From: a bacterium
GTDB taxonomy: Bacteria; JAMCPX01
NCBI GenBank assembly: GCA_021789095.1
Contig: JAJYJX010000094.1
Span: 1-9,782 of the forward strand
Length of the DNA stretch: 9,782 bases
Direction: 5' to 3'
Shown: one piece after another, positions 169-9,782 of the stretch
Numbering within the stretch: position 1 is the first letter of the stretch
Layout: each line of letters begins with the position of its first letter
Notes under the pieces: model-generated
Seen by the model: the letters and a program-made list of their open reading frames with translations, nothing else
Databases searched by the model: none
What the model was told of the DNA's origin: nothing
Made by a program: the position numbers and the translations under genes

Positions 169-3100
169 TTAAACAGTCTTATATAAGTTCTGTATGGGCG
201 TAACAGTAATATCGCCGTTTATCAATGCAAGGATCGCCTTGTAAGCGGCATCGGCCCCTTCTATCGTAGTATAATACGGTATATTATAGGTAATTGCGGA
301 CCTTCTTATTGAATAAGAGTCCTTTATGGATTTCTTCCCGAACGTAGTATTTATAAGCATAGCAATCTCACCGTTTTTTATCAGATCAACGATATGCGGC
401 CTGCCCTCCACCACCTTGTTCACGACCCTGACCTCTATGCCGCTCGCCGTCAAGACCTGTGCTGTGCCCCTCGTTGCAACGATGCTGAACCCCAGTTTCT
501 TTAACCCTTTCGCAATGGGCACTATAAGAAGCTTGTCCGTGTCTTTTACACTGATAAAGATAGTGCCCTTTAAAGGCAGCAGTATGTTTGAAGCAAGCTG
601 TGACTTTGCAAATGCCAGCGCAAATGTCCTGTCAATTCCCATTACTTCACCTGTAGACTTCATTTCAGGCCCCAGTATCGTATCCACACCCGGAAGCTTC
701 ACAAAAGGCAGAACCGCCTCTTTCACAGTAATATAATCAGTTATAACCTCCTTTGTAAAGCCCATGTCCTTCAGTTTCCTGCCGAGCATCACTTTTGTGG
801 CAAGCTTTGCCAGCGGCACACCTATGGATTTAGAAACAAACGGTATTGTCCTGCTCGCTCTGGGGTTGACTTCGAGTATATATACCTCGTTGTCCTTTAT
901 AGCGTACTGGATGTTTATAAGGCCAATGACATTCAATGCCTTTGCAAGTATTCTTGTCTGTCTCGAGATCTCGTCCGTCAGGTGCTGTGACAGGGAGAAA
1001 GGCGGCAGCGAACATGCACTGTCACCGGAGTGTATGCCTGCCTCCTCGATATGTTCCATGATGCCGCCGATAACAACGATATCTCCGTCGGAGATCGCAT
1101 CAACATCTATCTCCGTGGCACCATCAAGAAACTTATCAACAAGCACGGGCTTGTCTTCGCTCACGTTCACGGCCTTTTCCATGTACTCGATAAGCTCGTC
1201 ATTGTCGTAAACGATCTCCATTGCCCTGCCGCCCAGCACGTACGACGGCCTGAGTATAAGCGGGAAACCTATTGTATTGCCGATCCTTATTGCCTCTTCA
1301 ACAGACGTGGCTGTATAGCTTGTCGGCTGCCTGAGCTGGAGCCTTTCAAGCAGTTCCCTGAACCTTTTCCTGTCTTCAGCCATATCTATGCTTTCCGGCG
1401 ATGTACCCAGTACCTGTACGCCTGCTGCCTCAAGCCTTTTGGAGAGTTTCAGGGGCGTCTGGCCTCCGAACTGCACGATTAATCCGTACGGGCTCTCAAG
1501 ATCGACGATGTTCATGACGTCTTCGTATGTTACAGGTTCAAAATACAGCTTGTCCGATGTGTCATAATCGGTACTCACGGTCTCGGGGTTTGAATTGATC
1601 ATTATGGATTCATACCCCTCTTCCCTGAGGGCAAAGCTCGCATGCACGCAGCAGTAATCGAACTCTATGCCCTGGCCGATCCTGTTCGGACCGCTGCCCA
1701 GTATTACAACCCTCTTTCTCTGGGATACGACGGACTCATTTTCGTCTTCATAGGTTGAATACAGGTAAGGCGTGTATGCCTCAAACTCAGCACCGCATGT
1801 GTCAACGACCTTGTAAACCGGCTTAACACCATTGCCGGTGCGCACCTTTCGTATCACGGATTCAGCTGTGCCGAGCAGGGACGCAATGTACCTGTCTGCA
1901 AAGCCCATCCCCTTGGCGTCACGTATGATCTTGATTGCTTCGGCATCGGACAGTGAATAACCCCTGAGTGAACTTATCCTGTCTTCGTACCTGATAATTT
2001 CACTTATATTGTTAAGGAACCACGGGTCTATTGCGGTATATTTGTGGATCTCTTCGATTGCAAAGCCCATCCTCAACGCATCACCTATATAGAACAGCCG
2101 GTCAGGGGACGGCCTTTTTAACCCTTCTATCACTTTATCCAATACGGCTGATGTATTATAGTCATCCCTCTTGATCCTGCGTGCCATGCCTGACGCTCCT
2201 GATTCGAGCGATCGTATGGCCTTCTGCAGCGATTCCTTGAATGTCCTGCCTATCGCCATTACCTCCCCTACGGATTTCATCTGTGTTGTAAGGGTATCAT
2301 CCGCCTGTGGGAATTTTTCGAATGCGAACTTGGGTATCTTTGTAACGACATAATCAATCGTGGGCTCGAAAGAGGCCTTTGTGTTTTTGGTAATATCGTT
2401 CGTGATCTCATCAAGCGTGTAACCGATAGCAAGCTTTGTTGCAACCTTTGCAATCGGATAACCCGTCGCCTTCGACGCAAGGGCAGAGCTTCTCGACACC
2501 CTCGGGTTCATCTCTATTACGACCATGTCACCGTTTACAGGGTTGACGGCGAACTGTATGTTTGATCCGCCGCTTTCTATGCCGATCTCGCGCATGATCT
2601 TTATGGCGGCGTTGCGCATGGACTGGTATTCCTTGTCGGTCAGTGTCTGTGCAGGGGCAATGGTTATGCTGTCGCCCGTATGTATACCCATGGGATCAAA
2701 GTTCTCTATGGAACATACAACAATGCAGTTGTCATTTTTGTCCCTCATCATCTCAAGCTCGAATTCCTTCCACCCCAGCACTGACTCTTCAAGCAGGACC
2801 TCATGGGAAGGGCTGACACTCAGGCCGTACTCAACCTTGTCTTCGAATTCCTCTATGTTGTAAGCAACGCTCGCACCCGTGCCCCCGAGGGTGAATGACG
2901 GCCTTATAATCACGGGGAACCCTATGTCCCTTGCAAACCTCATTGCCTCTTCCTTTGAGTGCGTATACTTGCTGAAGGGCACCTTTAGGCCTATCTTCTC
3001 CATCGAGACCTTGAACATCTCCCTGTCCTCCGCCTTCTTGATTGTATCAATCCTTGCGCCTATGAGTTCAACGCCGTACTGCTTCAGTACGCCGCTGTCC

Positions 3101-3408
3101 GACAGTGCAACAGCCATGTTCAGCGCTGTCTGCCCGCCCATGGTAGGAAGAAGAGCATCGGGTCTTTCCGCGGCTATGACCTTCTTCAGTATATCGGGGT
3201 TGATAGGCTCTATGTAGGTCTTGTCTGCAAATTCAGGGTCTGTCATGATTGTCGCAGGATTGCTGTTGACCAGCACCACCTCTATCCCCTCAAGCTTCAG
3301 TGCCTTGCATGACTGCGTGCCCGAATAATCGAACTCCGACGCCTGCCCTATGACTATAGGACCGGAACCTATCAGCATGATCTTCTTTATGTCTCTACGC
3401 TTCGGCAT
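169..3408 (-). CDS. carB: Carbamoyl phosphate synthase large subunit
   Basis: The protein has 1079 residues, the usual family length (E. coli 1073). With CarA it makes carbamoyl phosphate from bicarbonate, glutamine-derived ammonia and two ATP. The order is the standard one: a first ATP-grasp half (start [20 protein letters not shown], then [33 protein letters not shown]), an oligomerisation segment, a second ATP-grasp half ([51 protein letters not shown]), and a C-terminal MGS-like allosteric domain. In that domain T979, T982, K998, N1020 and T1022 line up with the E. coli UMP/IMP-site residues at a constant offset of 5, so UMP feedback is likely (inference). The start at 3408 gives the canonical N-terminus and has GGGG at 3414-3417. 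Upstream in-frame codons to 3516 lie inside the radical SAM gene and are rejected. The stop is TAA at 169-171. Confidence 0.98.
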
Positions 3409-3418
3409 TAATTCCCCA

Positions 3419-4387
3419 TTATTCCTGTATCCATCCGTTCTCAAGTCCGTTTTTCTCAAGGCATTCGATAGCAGCAGCATGCTCGTCCGGTGTAATGCGC
3501 CTTGACAGCTCTTCAAACCGGTAAGCAGCGTTCGCGGGAAAATACTGGCTCATCAGGCTGATGCAGGTGTCCGGTGACAGGCGGTCCGCTATAAACTTCA
3601 TGGATTCGCACGTACCTGCACTATCATGCGGAAGTATCAGATGTCTTATGATCAAGCCCCTGCGTGCAATGCCGTTTTCATCCAGCTCCAGGAGTCCGAC
3701 CTGTCTGTGCATCTCGAGGAGCGCCATCCTGTTAACAGATACATAGTTCCTTACAGTCGAGTACCTGAACGCATGCTTGTCCGATGCATACTTTATATCA
3801 GGCAAATAGATATCGACGATACCGTCAAGCAGTTTGAGCATGCTGAGGGAGTCATAACCGCCGGTATTATAAACAAGAGGTATGCAGAGCCCTTTCTTTG
3901 CAGCCACAGAAACAGCTTCGATAATATGGGGCACAACATGCGTGGGTGTCACCAGGTTTATATTGTGAGCATGCATGTCCTGCAGTTCCAGCATCATGCC
4001 GGCAAGTCCTTCGATCGTGTAATCCTGGCCGTTGTTGAGCTGGCTTATGGGGTAGTTCTGGCAGAACCTGCACCTGAGGCTACAGCCGGCAAAAAATATC
4101 GTACCCGATCCGCGCGTCCCGGACAGGGGAGGTTCCTCCCCGTGATGGAGGTTATAACTCGAGACCCGCACATCCTTGCCCGCAAGACAGATGCCCTTCT
4201 GATTTTCCAGCCTGTTCGTGCGGCAGTTGCGGGGGCAGACCGTGCACGGGGAGAGATGCTTCTTTGACTCTTCTACCCTCCTTTCAAGCTCGCCGCTGTC
4301 CAGGAGTCTTCTGTATGACGGATAGAAATTCCCGGTCCCTGCAGGATAAGACTGCACCACTGTATTGTTGACTGCTTCCATTCCCAT
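3419..4387 (-). CDS. PflX-like radical SAM protein (pyruvate formate-lyase activase-related), function unknown
   Basis: About 322 residues, likely cytoplasmic. The radical SAM motif C-S-L-R-C-R-F-C (Cys102, 106, 109) should hold a 4Fe-4S cluster that cleaves S-adenosylmethionine. N-terminal to it is a four-Cys set (Cys48, 51, 55, 67: CTVCPRNC, then KGIC) typical of the PflX/COG1313 branch and able to bind a second metal centre (inference). Further matches are [20 protein letters not shown], the [10 protein letters not shown] helix, RHLILPHD and SLMSQYFP. The substrate is unknown for this branch, and no glycyl radical enzyme is visible here. Start: ATG at 4387 has AAGG eight bases upstream. 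A GTG at 4393 overlaps the previous stop (GTGA) but sits only two bases from that AAGG, and ATG 4381 is also possible. The gene lies 10 bases before carB. Nothing in the sequence ties it to pyrimidine synthesis beyond location. Confidence 0.87.
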
Positions 4388-4389
4388 AA

Positions 4390-5046
4390 TCACAACCTTG
4401 ACATGCCGTTATAAATCATCAGCGGAGATATCCAGTTATATTTTTCGCTCTTGATGCTCAATGCGGTCAGCTCAAAGACCCTTGCGGCAAACCCGGCATG
4501 GTCAAAACGGTCCACTGCTTCAAGCTGTGTGCGTATGAAATCCTTTGTGCTGTACGGATGGGTACAGTAGGATGCAAGCAGGAATACGCCGTCCCTGGAG
4601 CGCATAAACCGCATGGTCATAATCTCTTTATTCGCATGCAGGCTCATTCCCTCTCCCATCGTGAATTCCAGTTCCTCTCCTGTCATCACATCCGCGGCGA
4701 TATTTTTGTGGTGCCTGTCCATAACCTCGTATATACCCGCATGGCCCGCCCTGAGCGATCGGTACATCTCCTCTTCTTCATATGAAAATCCCAAAAGCTT
4801 TTCTTCATAAAATAGGGATGCAGGGGTTTTACCCGCTGCTTCCCTGCCCATGACCGGCCTGTCGATCAAAAACCAGTGGCTGAACATTATTAGCCTGTCA
4901 TGCATTTCTTCATCGTCCACAGGAGGTATCGGCACCAGAAGGTCGAACTCCCTCCTTGCCAATACCATCTCTCCCCTGAACCTTTCAGACGCAAAGTCAT
5001 AGATGGCTGACAGGCCGCGTTTGAGCATTGTGTTAGCGTCTTTCAT
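4390..5046 (-). CDS. Unrecognised conserved-looking cytoplasmic protein between carA and the radical SAM gene
   Basis: 218 residues from ATG 5046, which overlaps the end of carA by 14 bases. ATG 5028 (212 residues, 4 bases after the carA stop) is equally possible, and neither has a strong Shine-Dalgarno. Longer in-frame reading to 5172 would lie inside carA and is rejected. I do not recognise the family with confidence. Visible are: a basic start (MLKRGLSAIYDFASERFRGE), an acidic patch around residues 42-47 (PVDDEE), HDRLIMFSHWFLIDRP (49-64), GKTPASLFYEE (72-82), an acidic helix-like EEEEMYRSLRAGHAGIYEV (90-108), and MTGEELEFTMGEGMSLH (121-137). The rest is mixed alpha/beta with a hydrophobic C-terminus. 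There is no signal peptide, membrane segment or Cys motif (one Cys, 161). The pattern faintly recalls conserved hypothetical proteins of Deltaproteobacteria, which is a memory-based guess. Composition and reading frame argue for a real gene in the operon. Confidence 0.78.
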   Translation of the reverse strand: MKDANTMLKRGLSAIYDFASERFRGEMVLARREFDLLVPIPPVDDEEMHDRLIMFSHWFLIDRPVMGREAAGKTPASLFYEEKLLGFSYEEEEMYRSLRAGHAGIYEVMDRHHKNIAADVMTGEELEFTMGEGMSLHANKEIMTMRFMRSRDGVFLLASYCTHPYSTKDFIRTQLEAVDRFDHAGFAARVFELTALSIKSEKYNWISPLMIYNGMSRL

Positions 5047-6151
5047 ATACGAGCTTTGCAAACTCCTTGAATATATAACCGGCCTCCCTCGGACCCGGAG
5101 ATGCCTCGGGATGGTGCTGGAATGAAAGTACCGGCCTGGTTTTGTGGACAAAACCTTCAAGCGTCCTGTCATTCAGGTTAATGTGGGTAATATCCGCCTT
5201 GTCCTGAATGGATTCCGGTTTTATGGCAAAACCGTGGTTCTGGACCGTGATCTCGATGCCCCTGGTTTTCATGTTAAGAACGGATTGGTTGGCACCGTGG
5301 TGGCCGAACTTGAGTTTGATAGCCTCGCCTCCGAGAGCAAGGCCCAGAAGCTGGTGCCCGAGACAGATACCGAGTACAGGCTTATTGCTGGCTATCAGCT
5401 CCTTTGTATTTTCAATGATGTATGAAAGAGCTGCAGGATCCCCGGGCCCGTTTGAAAGCACTATGCCTTTGTATTCGTCCCTGAGCAGTTCGCCAACGGG
5501 TGTGGTGCACGGGAACACCCTCACCCTGAGTCCTGCCGAAACAAGAGACCTCAGTATATTCCTCTTGACCCCGAAGTCGTACACGGCAACCAGCGGATTC
5601 TTTTTTTCATGCATGCTCTTATAGCCGTCCTTGAGCGACCATAGCGGCTCATCGAAATCATATGGTTGCTTTGCAGTGATCTCTGTCACAAGGTCCCTGC
5701 CTAAAAGCGGCGGCTGCTTCCCGAGCTTGAACTTCAGTGCTTCCTCGCTTTCATCGAATGACGAGAGTATGCCCATCATTGCGCCCTTTGTCCTGATCCT
5801 CCTTACCAGCATCCTTGTATCAATACCGTACATGCCTATTACATTGTGCCTTGTCATGAAGCTGTCCAGGGACTCCGTTGACCTGAAATTTGACGGATAA
5901 TCAATATATTCCTTTACAATGAACCCGCCGAGGTATGTTTTGTCCGATTCATAATCCTGGGTATTAGTACCGACGTTGCCGATCTGGGTGTATGTCGCAA
6001 CGAGTATCTGACCATAGTAGGACGGGTCGGTCAGCTCTTCCTGGTAACCCGTCATGGACGTGTTAAACACGACCTCGCCTGCGGCAACACCCCTGTAACC
6101 GAAGGACTTACCCCTGAATATGGAACCGTCCTCAAGTACGAGCACTGCCAT
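5033..6151 (-). CDS. carA: Carbamoyl phosphate synthase small (glutaminase) subunit
   Basis: 372 residues, near the E. coli length of 382. It hydrolyses glutamine and channels ammonia to CarB. The N-terminal CPSase domain is clear (LEDGSIFRGKSFG, GEVVFNTSMTGYQEELTDPS). The C-terminal class I glutamine amidotransferase domain starts near residue 186 and carries the nucleophile elbow GICLGHQLLG with Cys263, then His347 and Glu349 in FQHHPEASPGP. These equal Cys269, His353 and Glu355 of E. coli at a constant offset of 6, so the triad is complete. SNGPGDP at 233-239 is the usual oxyanion-side loop. The ATG at 6151 lies 20 bases inside the end of pyrC and has GGAGG eight bases upstream, so translation is probably coupled to pyrC. 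CarB is not adjacent: two other genes, about 1.6 kb, separate the two subunits. Confidence 0.98.
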   Translation of the reverse strand: MAVLVLEDGSIFRGKSFGYRGVAAGEVVFNTSMTGYQEELTDPSYYGQILVATYTQIGNVGTNTQDYESDKTYLGGFIVKEYIDYPSNFRSTESLDSFMTRHNVIGMYGIDTRMLVRRIRTKGAMMGILSSFDESEEALKFKLGKQPPLLGRDLVTEITAKQPYDFDEPLWSLKDGYKSMHEKKNPLVAVYDFGVKRNILRSLVSAGLRVRVFPCTTPVGELLRDEYKGIVLSNGPGDPAALSYIIENTKELIASNKPVLGICLGHQLLGLALGGEAIKLKFGHHGANQSVLNMKTRGIEITVQNHGFAIKPESIQDKADITHINLNDRTLEGFVHKTRPVLSFQHHPEASPGPREAGYIFKEFAKLVYERR

Positions 6152-7454
6152 GTATCTTCCCTCCCAGTATGGTCATGACGGCCCTACCTTTTAATTCCAT
6201 CCCGTGAAAAGGCGTGTTTCTGCCTTTTGATACAAACATGTTTTTATCCACGGTCCATTTTTCCCCGGGATCTATAATAGTAATATCAGCGTCTGCCCCT
6301 GTTTTAAGAGAGCCTTTATCCTTAATATTCAGGATTTCATAAGGCCGTGATGACATCATCTGGACAAGCCTCTTCCTGCTTATTATTTTATCATGAAAAA
6401 GTTTTAAGGAAAGCCCTAAGGACGTTTCAAGCCCTGATATGCCGTTCAAAGCCTTATCGAACTCTATTTCCTTTTCATCGTAGCTGTGGGGCGCATGGTC
6501 CGTTACAATGCAGTCCACCGTACCGTCCGCTATAGCTTCAAGGACAGCCTGTCTGTCCGACTCCGACCTCAGCGGGGGATTGACCTTTGCATTTGTATTG
6601 TATCCCTCAACAGCCTCATCGTTGAGCGAGAAATGATGTGGTGTAACTTCGCAGGTAACGGGTATACCCCTTTTCTTTGCCCATCTGACAAGCTCTATGG
6701 AATACCGTGTGCTTATATGGGCAATATGGAGCCTTGAGTTTGTTTCCCCGGCAATCAGGATATCCCTTGCAACCGCAACACTTTCTGCGGTCTGCGGTAT
6801 GCCGTTAAGGCCAAGTCTGACCGACACAATACCCTCGTTCATGTATCCTGATTTGCTCAATAAAAGTTCTTCCGGATGATCTATAACCGGTATGCCGAGA
6901 GGCTTTACATACAAAAGTGCTTTCCTGAAAAGTCCTGCAGAAGACACGGGCATGCCGTCATCGGATACCGCAACCGCGCCTTCATCAACAAGGTCGTAGA
7001 TCTCCGAGAGTTCAGAACCTTCCAGTGCCTTTGTTATTGACGCTATCGGATAAAGGTTGGTATAGCCGCAATCGTTCGCCTTTGAAATCATATACCGCGT
7101 CACAGATTTGTTATCATTCACAGGTCTTGTGTTGGGCATCGCGCACACGGACGTGAACCCCCCTGTCATTGCCGCCCTTGTCCCTGTCACTATATCCTCC
7201 TTGTACTCGTATCCCGGATCCCTCAAGTGGGTATGCATATCCATAAGACCGGGCACGACCCATTTGCCCGAAGCGTCAATAATCATAAACACCCTGTCGG
7301 GATGACTATTTACAAGCGCCCTGTCACCCTTTATAGTGTAATCCTTTTGATCAATGATACCCTGAATTGTATCACCCTCTATAAGCAGGGCATCTGTCTG
7401 CTCCATGTCCTGTGCCGGGTCTATCAACAGACCATTAATTATCAGTATATCCAT
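6132..7454 (-). CDS. pyrC: Dihydroorotase, class I
   Basis: 440 residues. It closes carbamoyl aspartate to dihydroorotate, the third step. Amidohydrolase fold with metal ligands visible in order: H74 and H76 in DMHTHLRDPG, D165/D166 in SDDG (class I enzymes use an aspartate here instead of a carboxylated lysine), H193 in IDHPEE, H246 in AHIST, and D319 in TDHAPH. EYKEDI, MPNTRPV and TPHHFSL are further class I signatures. Two oddities: the usual IxHCED-type motif reads HPEE, and residues about 37-56 look roughly 14 residues longer than in typical enzymes, in the N-terminal beta-sandwich (comparison from memory). The motifs predict an active enzyme, not one of the inactive PyrC-like partners of some PyrB complexes. 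ATG 7454 has GGAGAGG just upstream inside pyrB, which it overlaps by 20 bases. The stop overlaps carA by 20 bases. Confidence 0.97.
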   Translation of the reverse strand: MDILIINGLLIDPAQDMEQTDALLIEGDTIQGIIDQKDYTIKGDRALVNSHPDRVFMIIDASGKWVVPGLMDMHTHLRDPGYEYKEDIVTGTRAAMTGGFTSVCAMPNTRPVNDNKSVTRYMISKANDCGYTNLYPIASITKALEGSELSEIYDLVDEGAVAVSDDGMPVSSAGLFRKALLYVKPLGIPVIDHPEELLLSKSGYMNEGIVSVRLGLNGIPQTAESVAVARDILIAGETNSRLHIAHISTRYSIELVRWAKKRGIPVTCEVTPHHFSLNDEAVEGYNTNAKVNPPLRSESDRQAVLEAIADGTVDCIVTDHAPHSYDEKEIEFDKALNGISGLETSLGLSLKLFHDKIISRKRLVQMMSSRPYEILNIKDKGSLKTGADADITIIDPGEKWTVDKNMFVSKGRNTPFHGMELKGRAVMTILGGKIHGSART

Positions 7455-8376
7455 GTTCCTCTCCTATAGTATGGTATATGGCTGACATTCTTATTGAAAC
7501 GCCGTTTTCCACCTGCTTCAGTATCCTTGAATGATCAGCATCATCGGCAACGCTGCTCGAAAGTTCCAGTCCCCTGTTTACAGGGCCGGGATGCATGACT
7601 ATTACATCCGGCCTCGCGAGCTTTAAGCGCTGCGCGTTCAGGCCGAAAATCCTGGAGTATTCTCTCGTGGAAGGGAAAAGACCTGTTGCCTGCCTCTCAA
7701 GCTGTATCCTTAACATAATAATAACATCGGCATCCGTGAATGCGTCTTTTGCATCGTAGGTGATGCTCGCACCAAGGGTTGCGAAATCATCGGTAATGAG
7801 TGTTGGCGGTGAAAAGAAATATACCCTGGCGCCGAGTTTGGTCATGCCGTATATGTCGGATCGAGCCACCCTCGAATGATATATGTCGCCTGCAATAACG
7901 ATCTTCAAATCATCGATGCGTTTCTTTTCATCCATGATGGTCATAATATCAAGCATGCCCTGGGTCGGATGCTCGTTTGTTCCGTCACCTGCACTTATTA
8001 TGGGAGTCTTGAGGTGCCTGGACAGCAGTTCCATTACACCTGATGAAGAATGCCTTATAATAAAAACAGCAGGGTGCATTGCTTCTATATTTTTTGCGGT
8101 ATCAATGGTCGTTTCTCCCTTTGATATGCTGCTTGATGTGTACGAGAAATTAACAACATCGGCCGACAGCCTTTTTGCAGCTATCTCAAACGATGTTTTA
8201 GTCCTTGTGCTCGCTTCAAAGAACAGGTTGACGACCGTCTTCCCCCTCAATGTCGGTACCTTTTTTACACTTCTCCTGGAGACATCCCTCATGGAAAATG
8301 CGGTTTCAATAATCTGTTCTATCTCCTTCCTGCTTAAGTATTTTAAACCTATAATGCCTTTGCCGGGAACCATCAT
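7435..8376 (-). CDS. pyrB: Aspartate carbamoyltransferase, catalytic subunit
   Basis: 313 residues, the standard catalytic-chain length. It joins carbamoyl phosphate and aspartate, the committed step. The carbamoyl phosphate loop FFEASTRTKTSFE has S56, T57, R58, T59. Next come the mobile-loop SISKGET (K86), IIRHS (R108), GDGTNEHPTQ with H136 and Q139, SRVARSD (R169), the aspartate-site MLRIQLER (R223, Q225), and MHPGPVNRG. All positions expected for activity are present. No pyrI regulatory chain follows, so control is likely through PyrR and not by an allosteric chain (inference). The start ATG at 8376 overlaps the pyrR stop (ATGA), with AGGAGA a few bases upstream inside pyrR; a second ATG follows immediately at 8373. 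The last codons contain the Shine-Dalgarno of pyrC. Confidence 0.98.
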   Translation of the reverse strand: MMVPGKGIIGLKYLSRKEIEQIIETAFSMRDVSRRSVKKVPTLRGKTVVNLFFEASTRTKTSFEIAAKRLSADVVNFSYTSSSISKGETTIDTAKNIEAMHPAVFIIRHSSSGVMELLSRHLKTPIISAGDGTNEHPTQGMLDIMTIMDEKKRIDDLKIVIAGDIYHSRVARSDIYGMTKLGARVYFFSPPTLITDDFATLGASITYDAKDAFTDADVIIMLRIQLERQATGLFPSTREYSRIFGLNAQRLKLARPDVIVMHPGPVNRGLELSSSVADDADHSRILKQVENGVSIRMSAIYHTIGEEHGYTDN

Positions 8377-8912
8377 AAATCTCCTTTTCTTATTAAATAT
8401 ACTGCATCGTCACTGCTGCCGCTTTCCCTTAATACAACCTTTATCTGATCATCGGCAGAGGTCGGAACATTCTTGCCTATATAATCCGCCTTTATCGGCA
8501 GTTCCCTGTGCCCCCTGTCTATAAGTACTGCAAGCTGTATAACCTGCGGCCTGCCAAGATCTATGACGGCATCCATTGCCGCCCTTATGGTGCGGCCCGT
8601 AAAGAGTACATCATCCACCAGGACTATATAAGATTCACCAACCGGGAATTTTATCTCCGTTGCTTTTACAATAGCTCTGCCTGTTCGCATTGCAACATCA
8701 TCCCTGTAGAGTGTGATATCCAGCGTTCCGTTCAGTACGGGGATCTGCCCGTAAGACCTGATGTATTCTGACAGTCGTTTTGCAAGGAATACGCCGCCCG
8801 TTCTTATGCCTATAAGATATATAGGAACAGATGCATGTTTTTCTATTATCTCATGGGCTATGCGCTTGAGTGCCCTTTCTATTGCTGTGGCATCCATGAT
8901 TATATTCTTCAT
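8373..8912 (-). CDS. pyrR: PyrR bifunctional protein: pyr mRNA-binding attenuation regulator / uracil phosphoribosyltransferase
   Basis: 179 residues, the usual PyrR length. In Bacillus this protein senses UMP/UTP against PRPP, binds a stem-loop in pyr leader RNA and represses the operon; it also has uracil phosphoribosyltransferase activity. The PRPP loop YIVLVDDVLFTGRTIRA lies near residues 95-111. Segments strongly conserved with B. subtilis PyrR include AIERALKRIAHEII (10-23), DITLYRDD, LGRPQVIQLAVLIDRGHREL and ADYIGKNVPTS. The basic RIAHE and DRGHREL stretches that form the RNA-binding face in Bacillus are retained (comparison from memory), which agrees with a perfect binding loop in the leader. 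The ATG at 8912 has GGAGG at 8919-8923, six bases away. An in-frame GTG at 8927 would lie upstream of that site and is rejected. The start overlaps the leader ORF stop (ATGA). Confidence 0.97.
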   Translation of the reverse strand: MKNIIMDATAIERALKRIAHEIIEKHASVPIYLIGIRTGGVFLAKRLSEYIRSYGQIPVLNGTLDITLYRDDVAMRTGRAIVKATEIKFPVGESYIVLVDDVLFTGRTIRAAMDAVIDLGRPQVIQLAVLIDRGHRELPIKADYIGKNVPTSADDQIKVVLRESGSSDDAVYLIRKGDL

Positions 8913-8992
8913 CGCGTTCCTCCGCACAAAAAAAACAGTGGCGCTTCCCGCGCCACTGTTTCAGTATCATGTATTATATTTTTTTGAAACAT
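8909..8992 (-). CDS. pyr leader peptide, 27 codons, spanning the attenuator terminator
   Basis: A short ORF not found by length-limited ORF calling. The ATG (8992-8990) is preceded at five bases by AAGGAGG (8998-9004), the strongest Shine-Dalgarno in the window. The frame runs MFQKNIIHDT..., passes through the terminator stem (TVARE...APL), uses the U-tract as Phe-Phe-Leu codons, then crosses the pyrR Shine-Dalgarno as Cys-Gly-Gly, and stops with TGA at 8911-8909, overlapping the pyrR ATG as ATGA. There are no runs of one amino acid, so amino-acid-level sensing is unlikely. Because the ORF covers the entire terminator, a ribosome close behind RNA polymerase would keep the hairpin from folding, as in the E. 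coli pyrBI leader. That role is inference; the ORF, its Shine-Dalgarno and the overlap are seen directly. Confidence 0.8.
   Translation of the reverse strand: MFQKNIIHDTETVAREAPLFFLCGGTR
8919..8923 (-). promoter_or_regulatory. pyrR: pyrR Shine-Dalgarno, placed between attenuator and start
   Basis: GGAGG lies six bases before ATG 8912 and only four bases beyond the terminator T-run. It decides the pyrR start at 8912 against the GTG at 8927. The site is itself translated as Gly-Gly codons of the leader ORF, so leader translation may feed ribosomes into pyrR. Confidence 0.85.
8928..8961 (-). terminator. Intrinsic terminator acting as attenuator upstream of pyrR
   Basis: On the minus strand a perfect 12-bp stem (8961-8950 AAACAGTGGCGC with 8944-8933 GCGCCACTGTTT) closes a five-base loop GGGAA and runs into eight consecutive T (8935-8928). 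The stem base is A/T and its top is GC-rich. It sits directly before the pyrR Shine-Dalgarno and inside the leader ORF, not after a gene, which marks it as an attenuator. On the plus strand the stem is not followed by T, so it is one-directional. A possible weak competing pairing is UGUUUC (8991-8986) with GAAACA (8962-8957), six pairs, which would melt the lower stem. Confidence 0.93.
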
Positions 8993-8995
8993 TCC

Positions 8996-9036
8996 TACCT
9001 CCTTGTTAACCTCTCAGGATTAACTTAAAGGAAACA
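8996..9036 (-). promoter_or_regulatory. Extended leader stem that can sequester the leader Shine-Dalgarno
   Basis: Outside the PyrR loop the RNA can continue to pair after a three-base bulge (9025-9027, AAU). The 5' arm 9036-9028 (UGUUUCCUU) meets 9004-8996 (AAGGAGGUA): six Watson-Crick and three G-U pairs, covering the whole Shine-Dalgarno of the leader ORF. An upper stem with the PyrR loop, a 5' bulge and a lower stem is the general shape of Bacillus PyrR sites. This suggests that PyrR binding stabilises a form in which the leader cannot be translated. The pairing is seen by eye; its stability was not computed. Confidence 0.55.
9005..9024 (-). promoter_or_regulatory. PyrR mRNA-binding loop
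   Basis: Minus-strand RNA GUUAAUCCUGAGAGGUUAAC folds into a 7-bp stem with hexaloop CUGAGA (8 9017 to 9012 side), closing pairs G-C, U-A, U-A, A-U, A-U, U-G, C-G. The core at 9021-9008, AAUCCUGAGAGGUU, matches every position of the published Bacillus PyrR consensus ARUCCNGNGAGGYU, including the CNGNGA loop. It lies 15 bases after the stop of the membrane-protein gene and is followed at once by the leader Shine-Dalgarno. Together with pyrR as the next gene this makes PyrR binding very likely. In Bacillus such loops act as anti-antiterminators; in Mycobacterium smegmatis a similar loop blocks a ribosome site. Confidence 0.92.
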
Positions 9037-9038
9037 TA

Positions 9039-9437
9039 TTACTCCACTTCTGTTTTTGCTTCCGGGTTAAAATGAAACGTTATTTTGAAATCGTCAACAA
9101 ATTTCACTGTTACAGAATACTGTGCCCTTATGGTTAAACTCTTTGGATCGTTCTGCGTTATGGTAACATCGTCTATCGTGACCGGCGCATGCATGGTTTG
9201 CAATTTAGCTGCAACGTCCGATTTTATGTCCTGCAGAGGCGTGGTTTCGGCCCTGTCTGCATTGACCTCGAAGAGGTTCTGTATCTGGTAATTGATGATA
9301 TAAACAGGCACAATCTTTACACTACCATAAACAATCAAAGCCAGTACAAGGATCCATATGATTGCCGAGAGTTTTGAGCCACCTGTTTGATTACCGGTGT
9401 ATAATCGCTTTACATCCATATTTGGGTATTTATCCAT
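9039..9437 (-). CDS. Small single-pass membrane protein, DUF4845-like
   Basis: 132 residues from ATG 9437. A charged/polar N-terminus (MDKYPNMDVKRLYTGNQTGG) is followed by one hydrophobic segment, about residues 23-43 (LSAIIWILVLALIVYGSVKI), then VPVYIINYQIQNLF and a soluble C-terminal domain with a beta-rich end (TIDDVTITQ, LTIRAQYSVTVKFV, FKITFHF). The layout of one membrane helix, a K-x-x-P-x-Y motif and a short extracytoplasmic domain resembles DUF4845-type and related small Desulfobacterota proteins; this assignment is tentative and the function unknown. No clear Shine-Dalgarno is seen; ATG 9419 and TTG 9455 are alternative starts. The gene ends three bases before the sequence that folds into the pyr leader, with no terminator between, so its transcript probably runs into the attenuator. 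It might be the true first gene of the operon. Confidence 0.78.
   Translation of the reverse strand: MDKYPNMDVKRLYTGNQTGGSKLSAIIWILVLALIVYGSVKIVPVYIINYQIQNLFEVNADRAETTPLQDIKSDVAAKLQTMHAPVTIDDVTITQNDPKSLTIRAQYSVTVKFVDDFKITFHFNPEAKTEVE
9069..9097 (-). promoter_or_regulatory. Possible internal pyr promoter inside the membrane-protein gene
   Basis: TTGACG (9097-9092) is followed after 17 bases by CATTTT (9074-9069), a good -35 but only 3 of 6 for the -10. Transcription from it would start near 9062 and include the full PyrR loop and its 5' arm. It lies in coding sequence, so the match may be chance. The alternative is that pyr RNA comes from the promoter upstream of 9437. Confidence 0.22.
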
Positions 9438-9458
9438 GATTTTAACAACAGTCAATAG

Positions 9459-9523: not shown

Positions 9524-9551
9524 TCTGATGAAAAATGATAAGGGGTGCCCT

Positions 9552-9782
9552 ATGGTATCAGGATCAACGGGAAAGGAAAAAAGAACAGGAACAGACAGAA
9601 GATCTAATCTTGAAAGGCGTTCCGGCGATGATCGCAGATCCGGGTTTGACAGAAGAGCTGCAAACATTGAAGTAAACACTGATAAAAGATCGGGTATTGA
9701 CAGACGCTCTGGATCCGACAGAAGGTCAGTAATTGACAGGCGGTCAGGCGTTGACAGAAGGGAATTTATAAAGAAATTTGAG
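9552..9782 (+). CDS. Arg/Asp-rich hexad-repeat protein, N-terminal 77 residues (cut by window edge)
   Basis: Open reading frame from ATG 9552 to the window end with no stop, 77 codons. AAGGGG lies six bases before the ATG. After MVSGSTGK the protein is a chain of six-residue units with the core D-R-R-S: EKRT, TDRRS, LERRS, DDRRS, FDRRA, then a linker NIEVN, then DKRS, IDRRS, SDRRS, IDRRS, VDRRE. Acidic positions fall at 9, 15, 21, 27, 33 and then 44, 50, 56, 62, 68, so two five-unit blocks are set one residue out of step. The final EFIKKFE may open a folded domain. Highly charged with alternating acid and base, it is probably disordered or a charged surface helix, with no signal or membrane segment. 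Similar RRSGxDRR motifs occur in small Desulfobacterota proteins and beside signalling domains (memory-based); the function is unknown. Confidence 0.75.
   Translation, partial: MVSGSTGKEKRTGTDRRSNLERRSGDDRRSGFDRRAANIEVNTDKRSGIDRRSGSDRRSVIDRRSGVDRREFIKKFE

Follow-up and report, generated by a model that had tools for sequence, protein, structure and literature searches.

A PyrR site, a leader reading frame and a terminator ahead of a bacterial pyr operon: a probable Thermus-type attenuator in another lineage

The window analysed here (9,782 nt; contig JAJYJX010000094.1 of assembly GCA_021789095.1) carries on its minus strand a leader followed, in this order, by pyrR, pyrB, pyrC, carA, a 260-aa ORF, a radical SAM gene and carB. 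The pyrR product (8373-8912) scores 218 bits against the equivalog model NCBIfam NF003549, above the cut-off of 138, and the regulated operon continues with pyrB (7435-8376; NF002032, 382 bits), pyrC (6132-7454; TIGR00857, 424 bits) and carA (5033-6151; TIGR01368, 454 bits), all on the minus strand. The carB gene (169-3516, minus strand), recognized by its Pfam CPSase large-chain domains, probably belongs to the same operon; the coordinates are those of the ORF as listed and the true start may be further in. The 260-aa ORF between carA and the radical SAM gene (4390-5172, minus strand) matches no Pfam or NCBIfam model. On the other side of the leader, a small DUF4845-like gene (9039-9455, minus strand; PF16137) has its stop (9039) a few bases ahead of the PyrR hairpin, and the end of the same gene is found just upstream of the leaders L018-L021. 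A sigma-70 promoter scan around the leader, including the interval between the DUF4845-like gene and the hairpin, found none. The start of a further ORF (9528-9782, plus strand), which contains repeated DRRSG-like motifs and has no Pfam match, runs off the window.

Inspection of the window sequence places all parts of an attenuator on the minus strand between 9036 and 8909. The Rfam covariance model of the PyrR site, RF00515, which the preliminary description had proposed as a check, matches at 9035-8926 (minus strand) with 59.2 bits against a gathering score of 54, and a genome-wide search with this model gave no other match. A search of the genome for a second PyrR site with a loop regular expression returned one extra match, inside lipB and on the opposite strand, which was set aside as a chance occurrence. 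The predicted PyrR-binding hairpin (8998-9032; fold -10.1 kcal/mol) displays the conserved loop UUUAAGUUAAUCCUGAGAGG at 9029-9010 (minus strand) with 0 substitutions relative to the consensus, as first noticed by eye. Its 3' arm contains a Shine-Dalgarno sequence (SD), AAGGAGG (8998-9004), which is mostly paired within the hairpin in both predicted folds, and the leader RNA as a whole is predicted to fold much more stably than shuffled versions (z -4.5). Five bases past this SD, an ATG at 8992 opens a leader ORF (8909-8992) whose 27 sense codons encode MFQKNIIHDTETVAREAPLFFLCGGTR and whose TGA (8911-8909) overlaps the pyrR ATG (8912) as ATGA (8909-8912). The SD, the start codon, the length of the ORF and the overlap with pyrR are all present as initially described. 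Within the ORF lies an intrinsic terminator (8932-8962; -22.5 kcal/mol) and, in its last part, the pyrR SD GGAGG (8919-8923). The eight T reported earlier were found inside the ORF (8928-8935), the first four bases of the run being counted in the stem; the stem itself has 13 bp in the terminator scan and not the 12 bp first given.

The two other frames of the window close 38-45 nt ahead of the terminator end. A lone open frame of 27 codons is nonetheless unremarkable and weak evidence, chance producing one roughly one time in four by our own estimate; once lineages are compared, the sequences place the layout well beyond chance. In the window's own family, pyrR is found in seven of nine genomes, and in all seven a start codon lies beside the PyrR hairpin and its frame stays open across the terminator. 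Relatives conserving the loop and the terminator but not the frame, which the preliminary description had named as a possible refutation, were thus not encountered in this family. The frame of L017 is one base off relative to the terminator and still open; in the leaders L003-L006 (four species of one genus), the start is an ATG directly after AAGG, and the likely SD is the GAGG of the PyrR loop. In two of these leaders, L005 and L006, AAGGAUGAGCUG is able to pair with CAGCUUUCCUU of the terminator; these two may possess an antiterminator in addition to the leader ORF. As far as these sequences go, the leader is constant within the family and the antiterminator variable.

For the comparison between lineages, loci were collected by a scan of named genomes with the PyrR protein and by running RF00515 against 386 genomes, 78 of which matched. 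The 110 leaders having both a site and a terminator were reduced to 94 clusters at 80% identity, so that a terminator is built into the definition of every cluster; SDs and pyrR starts were assigned by computation, and the start codon was chosen on SD match, spacing and codon type, blind to the downstream sequence. ATG codons peak 8-9 nt past the conserved AAGG, in 32 of the 94 clusters, whereas positions further downstream have about 1.3 each. Of 62 cluster representatives, 49 have an SD frame that stays open across the terminator; for the two shifted frames the numbers are 29 and 27 (p 3.5e-5 by permutation). Among the 60 independent leaders whose pyrR was located, the SD starts within the PyrR hairpin in 52. 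In 40 of the 60 the stop of the SD frame lies past the terminator and between positions -40 and +10 relative to the pyrR start; the other frames do this in 9 and 7 (p <=1e-6), and leaving out the window's own family gives 37, 9 and 7. An exact ATGA ending, as in the window, occurs in 15 of the 60 for the SD frame and in 2 and 2 for the others (p 6e-5; clustering drops close copies and some relatedness remains, so these permutation p-values are guides only). The peptides themselves differ between lineages. Taken across lineages, the sequences indicate that the leader frame is under selection. In L083 (Omnitrophica), the frame, which appears to cross two terminators, is joined to pyrR by ATGA all the same. 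Six leaders (L043, L044, L071, L077, L086, L144) have a short hairpin, GGCAGC-GUGA-GCUGC (loop variants GUGC and GUAA), after the SD and just past the PyrR hairpin; its loop often contains a GTG start, and a structural role is possible because the loop of L086 has GTA instead.

As a control, the class of G059, in which 79 of 81 genomes have an RF00515 match and which we take as the Bacilli on account of this high rate and of its genome sizes, was compared with the leader class on ATG position, open frame and arm pairing. In this control an ATG at +7 to +10 occurs 5 times in 47 leaders, a value equal to background, and of 15 SD starts 8 have an open frame, the other frames being open in 7 and 8. 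The start-codon and open-frame signals of the leader class are missing in the Bacilli control.

In the pyr attenuators of Bacillus subtilis, PyrR acts via an anti-antiterminator (PMC4347634). The window resembles these attenuators in having a PyrR hairpin (RF00515) and an intrinsic terminator upstream of pyr genes, but it is essentially without an antiterminator and carries instead a leader ORF whose SD lies in the hairpin. A classical attenuator of this kind, with PyrR stabilizing the anti-antiterminator, the 3' arm of the hairpin pairing with the 5' arm of the terminator when PyrR is away, and an incidental leader ORF, would fit the span of the RF00515 match, which covers both site and terminator, as well as the pairing available to L005 and L006. 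It would also fit the Bacilli leaders, which do form the antiterminator pairing: their hairpin and terminator arms pair with a mean of -11.1 kcal/mol, better than mismatched arm combinations (mean z -0.80), whereas the mean in the leader class is -7.4 kcal/mol, barely above mismatched arms (z -0.21), and the two groups differ (p 4e-9). However, arm-to-arm pairing in the window amounts to just -1.8 kcal/mol, the weakest among the 94 leader clusters, so that on computed pairing a Bacillus-type antiterminator is essentially absent. A UGUUUC-GAAACA pairing was considered for this role and rejected, as it sits downstream of the PyrR hairpin, where PyrR could have no effect on it; the total energy of the spacer-terminator duplex was likewise abandoned as a measure in favor of hairpin-arm pairing, as it counts pairings beyond PyrR's influence. 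The Bacillus explanation also leaves the frame and ATGA statistics unaccounted for, and we regard it as improbable for the window.

Equally improbable in our judgement is control of translation only, in which PyrR would block the leader and, through the ATGA coupling, the translation of pyrR, the terminator being unregulated. The ATGA overlap and the strong enrichment of stops at the pyrR start speak for such coupling, and so do L066 and L091 (Acidobacteria), where only 10-16 nt, without a terminator, separate the PyrR site from the pyrR start downstream, an arrangement that looks like translational repression of pyrR itself. Mycobacterium smegmatis provides the precedent: its PyrR represses translation from a site overlapping a Shine-Dalgarno sequence. 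The PyrR site of the window overlaps a Shine-Dalgarno sequence as well, but this is the SD of the leader, and the terminator separates it from pyrR, whose own SD (8923-8919) lies beyond. A strong terminator in the leader, between site and gene, would keep the whole operon off unless it is prevented from forming. Moreover, the SD frame closes early, with over 12 nt left before the terminator, in only 2 of the 60 leaders; in the other 58 it comes at least as close as 12 nt to the stem or runs past that point. The other frames close early in 15 and 15 and come this far in 45 and 45.

In E. coli pyrBI, which has no PyrR site, UTP-dependent polymerase pausing is the signal, and leader translation through the terminator keeps the operon on. 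The window shares with it a proposed translation of the leader up to and through a terminator; unlike pyrBI, it has a PyrR site. That the window works in the same way, with the PyrR site as a relic, would agree with a leader crossing the terminator immediately ahead of the operon, but is very improbable given that the SD lies within a consensus PyrR site, that the first gene is pyrR and that the sequence between the start codon and the terminator is rich in A and has no long U tract of the kind expected for pausing.

The closest parallel is found in Thermus. Van de Casteele and colleagues reportedly proposed in 1997, for the pyr operon of Thermus ZO5, that a translating ribosome and not an antiterminator prevents the terminator from forming, and the start site is said to lie about 115 nt before pyrR. 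Among the genomes collected here, two have a PyrR that shares 93% and 89% identity, respectively, with the 1ufr chain, which we take to be the T. thermophilus protein, and a third of the same family has one 76% identical. In these likely Thermus genomes the leaders have 28, 28 and 38 codons, respectively, and run through the terminator, with weaker arm pairing (-6.6 to -7.7 kcal/mol); in the first two, 116 nt separate the start of the PyrR site from that of pyrR. The phylum of G266 was also considered as the group holding Thermus and was set aside as not Thermus-like; the leader analysis there covered only 11 leaders, a small sample. The window has the same anatomy as the likely Thermus leaders, with the SD in or at the PyrR hairpin and a frame open across the terminator; on computed pairing, the window also lacks a functional antiterminator. 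It agrees with the ZO5 scheme in having pyrR first, a PyrR site, a leader read through the terminator and no antiterminator, and in the proposal that a ribosome prevents termination. It differs in belonging to another lineage, in its perfect SD and in its ATGA overlap (in the likely Thermus genomes the overlap is a few bases longer), and the peptide is not conserved. The statement in the preliminary description that no described system joins these parts is contradicted by the reported 1997 proposal and by this shared layout, which many other lineages have as well. Literature searches on a PyrR leader peptide found no discussion of it in the accessible text of the papers retrieved; open papers give the Bacillus mechanism or only name PyrR.

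The best explanation for the window, and in our view a probable one, is a Thermus-type transcription attenuator controlled by PyrR. The parts and their order, the position of the SD in the hairpin, the virtual lack of an antiterminator and the selection on the leader frame can be read in the sequences, and the following scheme is what we infer from there. PyrR with UMP would clamp the leader hairpin and hide the SD; no ribosome would then load, the terminator would fold and transcription would end ahead of pyrR. At low UMP, PyrR would leave and a ribosome would load at 8992, trail the polymerase and cover the 5' arm of the terminator, so that the polymerase reads on; this ribosome would end at the TGA overlapping the pyrR ATG, where it might re-initiate. 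The frame statistics agree with a leader translation that prevents termination. The same mechanism, with PyrR-UMP blocking leader translation and freeing the terminator, had been suggested from the window alone and is now the best-supported reading, its layout being kept in all seven pyrR-bearing genomes of the family. Several observations count against it: some leaders stop inside the terminator and not past it, the relatives L005 and L006 could form an antiterminator too, and in the window the SD and the U-run are roughly 70 nt apart, a stretch in which the ribosome must load and advance about five codons, with no pause site found to give it time.

PyrR is a classic example of attenuation under the control of a protein and is known chiefly from Bacillus. 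The window is probably a further case, in another lineage, of a known and little-tested type of attenuator, and to judge by the leaders compared here this type is apparently common outside the Bacilli. There is perhaps an even chance that, across a large part of the bacteria outside the Bacilli, PyrR usually works through the protein-gated leader attenuator and that the antiterminator version of Bacillus is the special case. If the version relying on leader translation is common, many RF00515 annotations outside the Bacilli would imply a mechanism other than the one usually stated, and the Thermus proposal would be directly testable through one start-codon variant. A repressor gating a ribosome, and the ribosome in turn breaking a terminator, would then be a general design.
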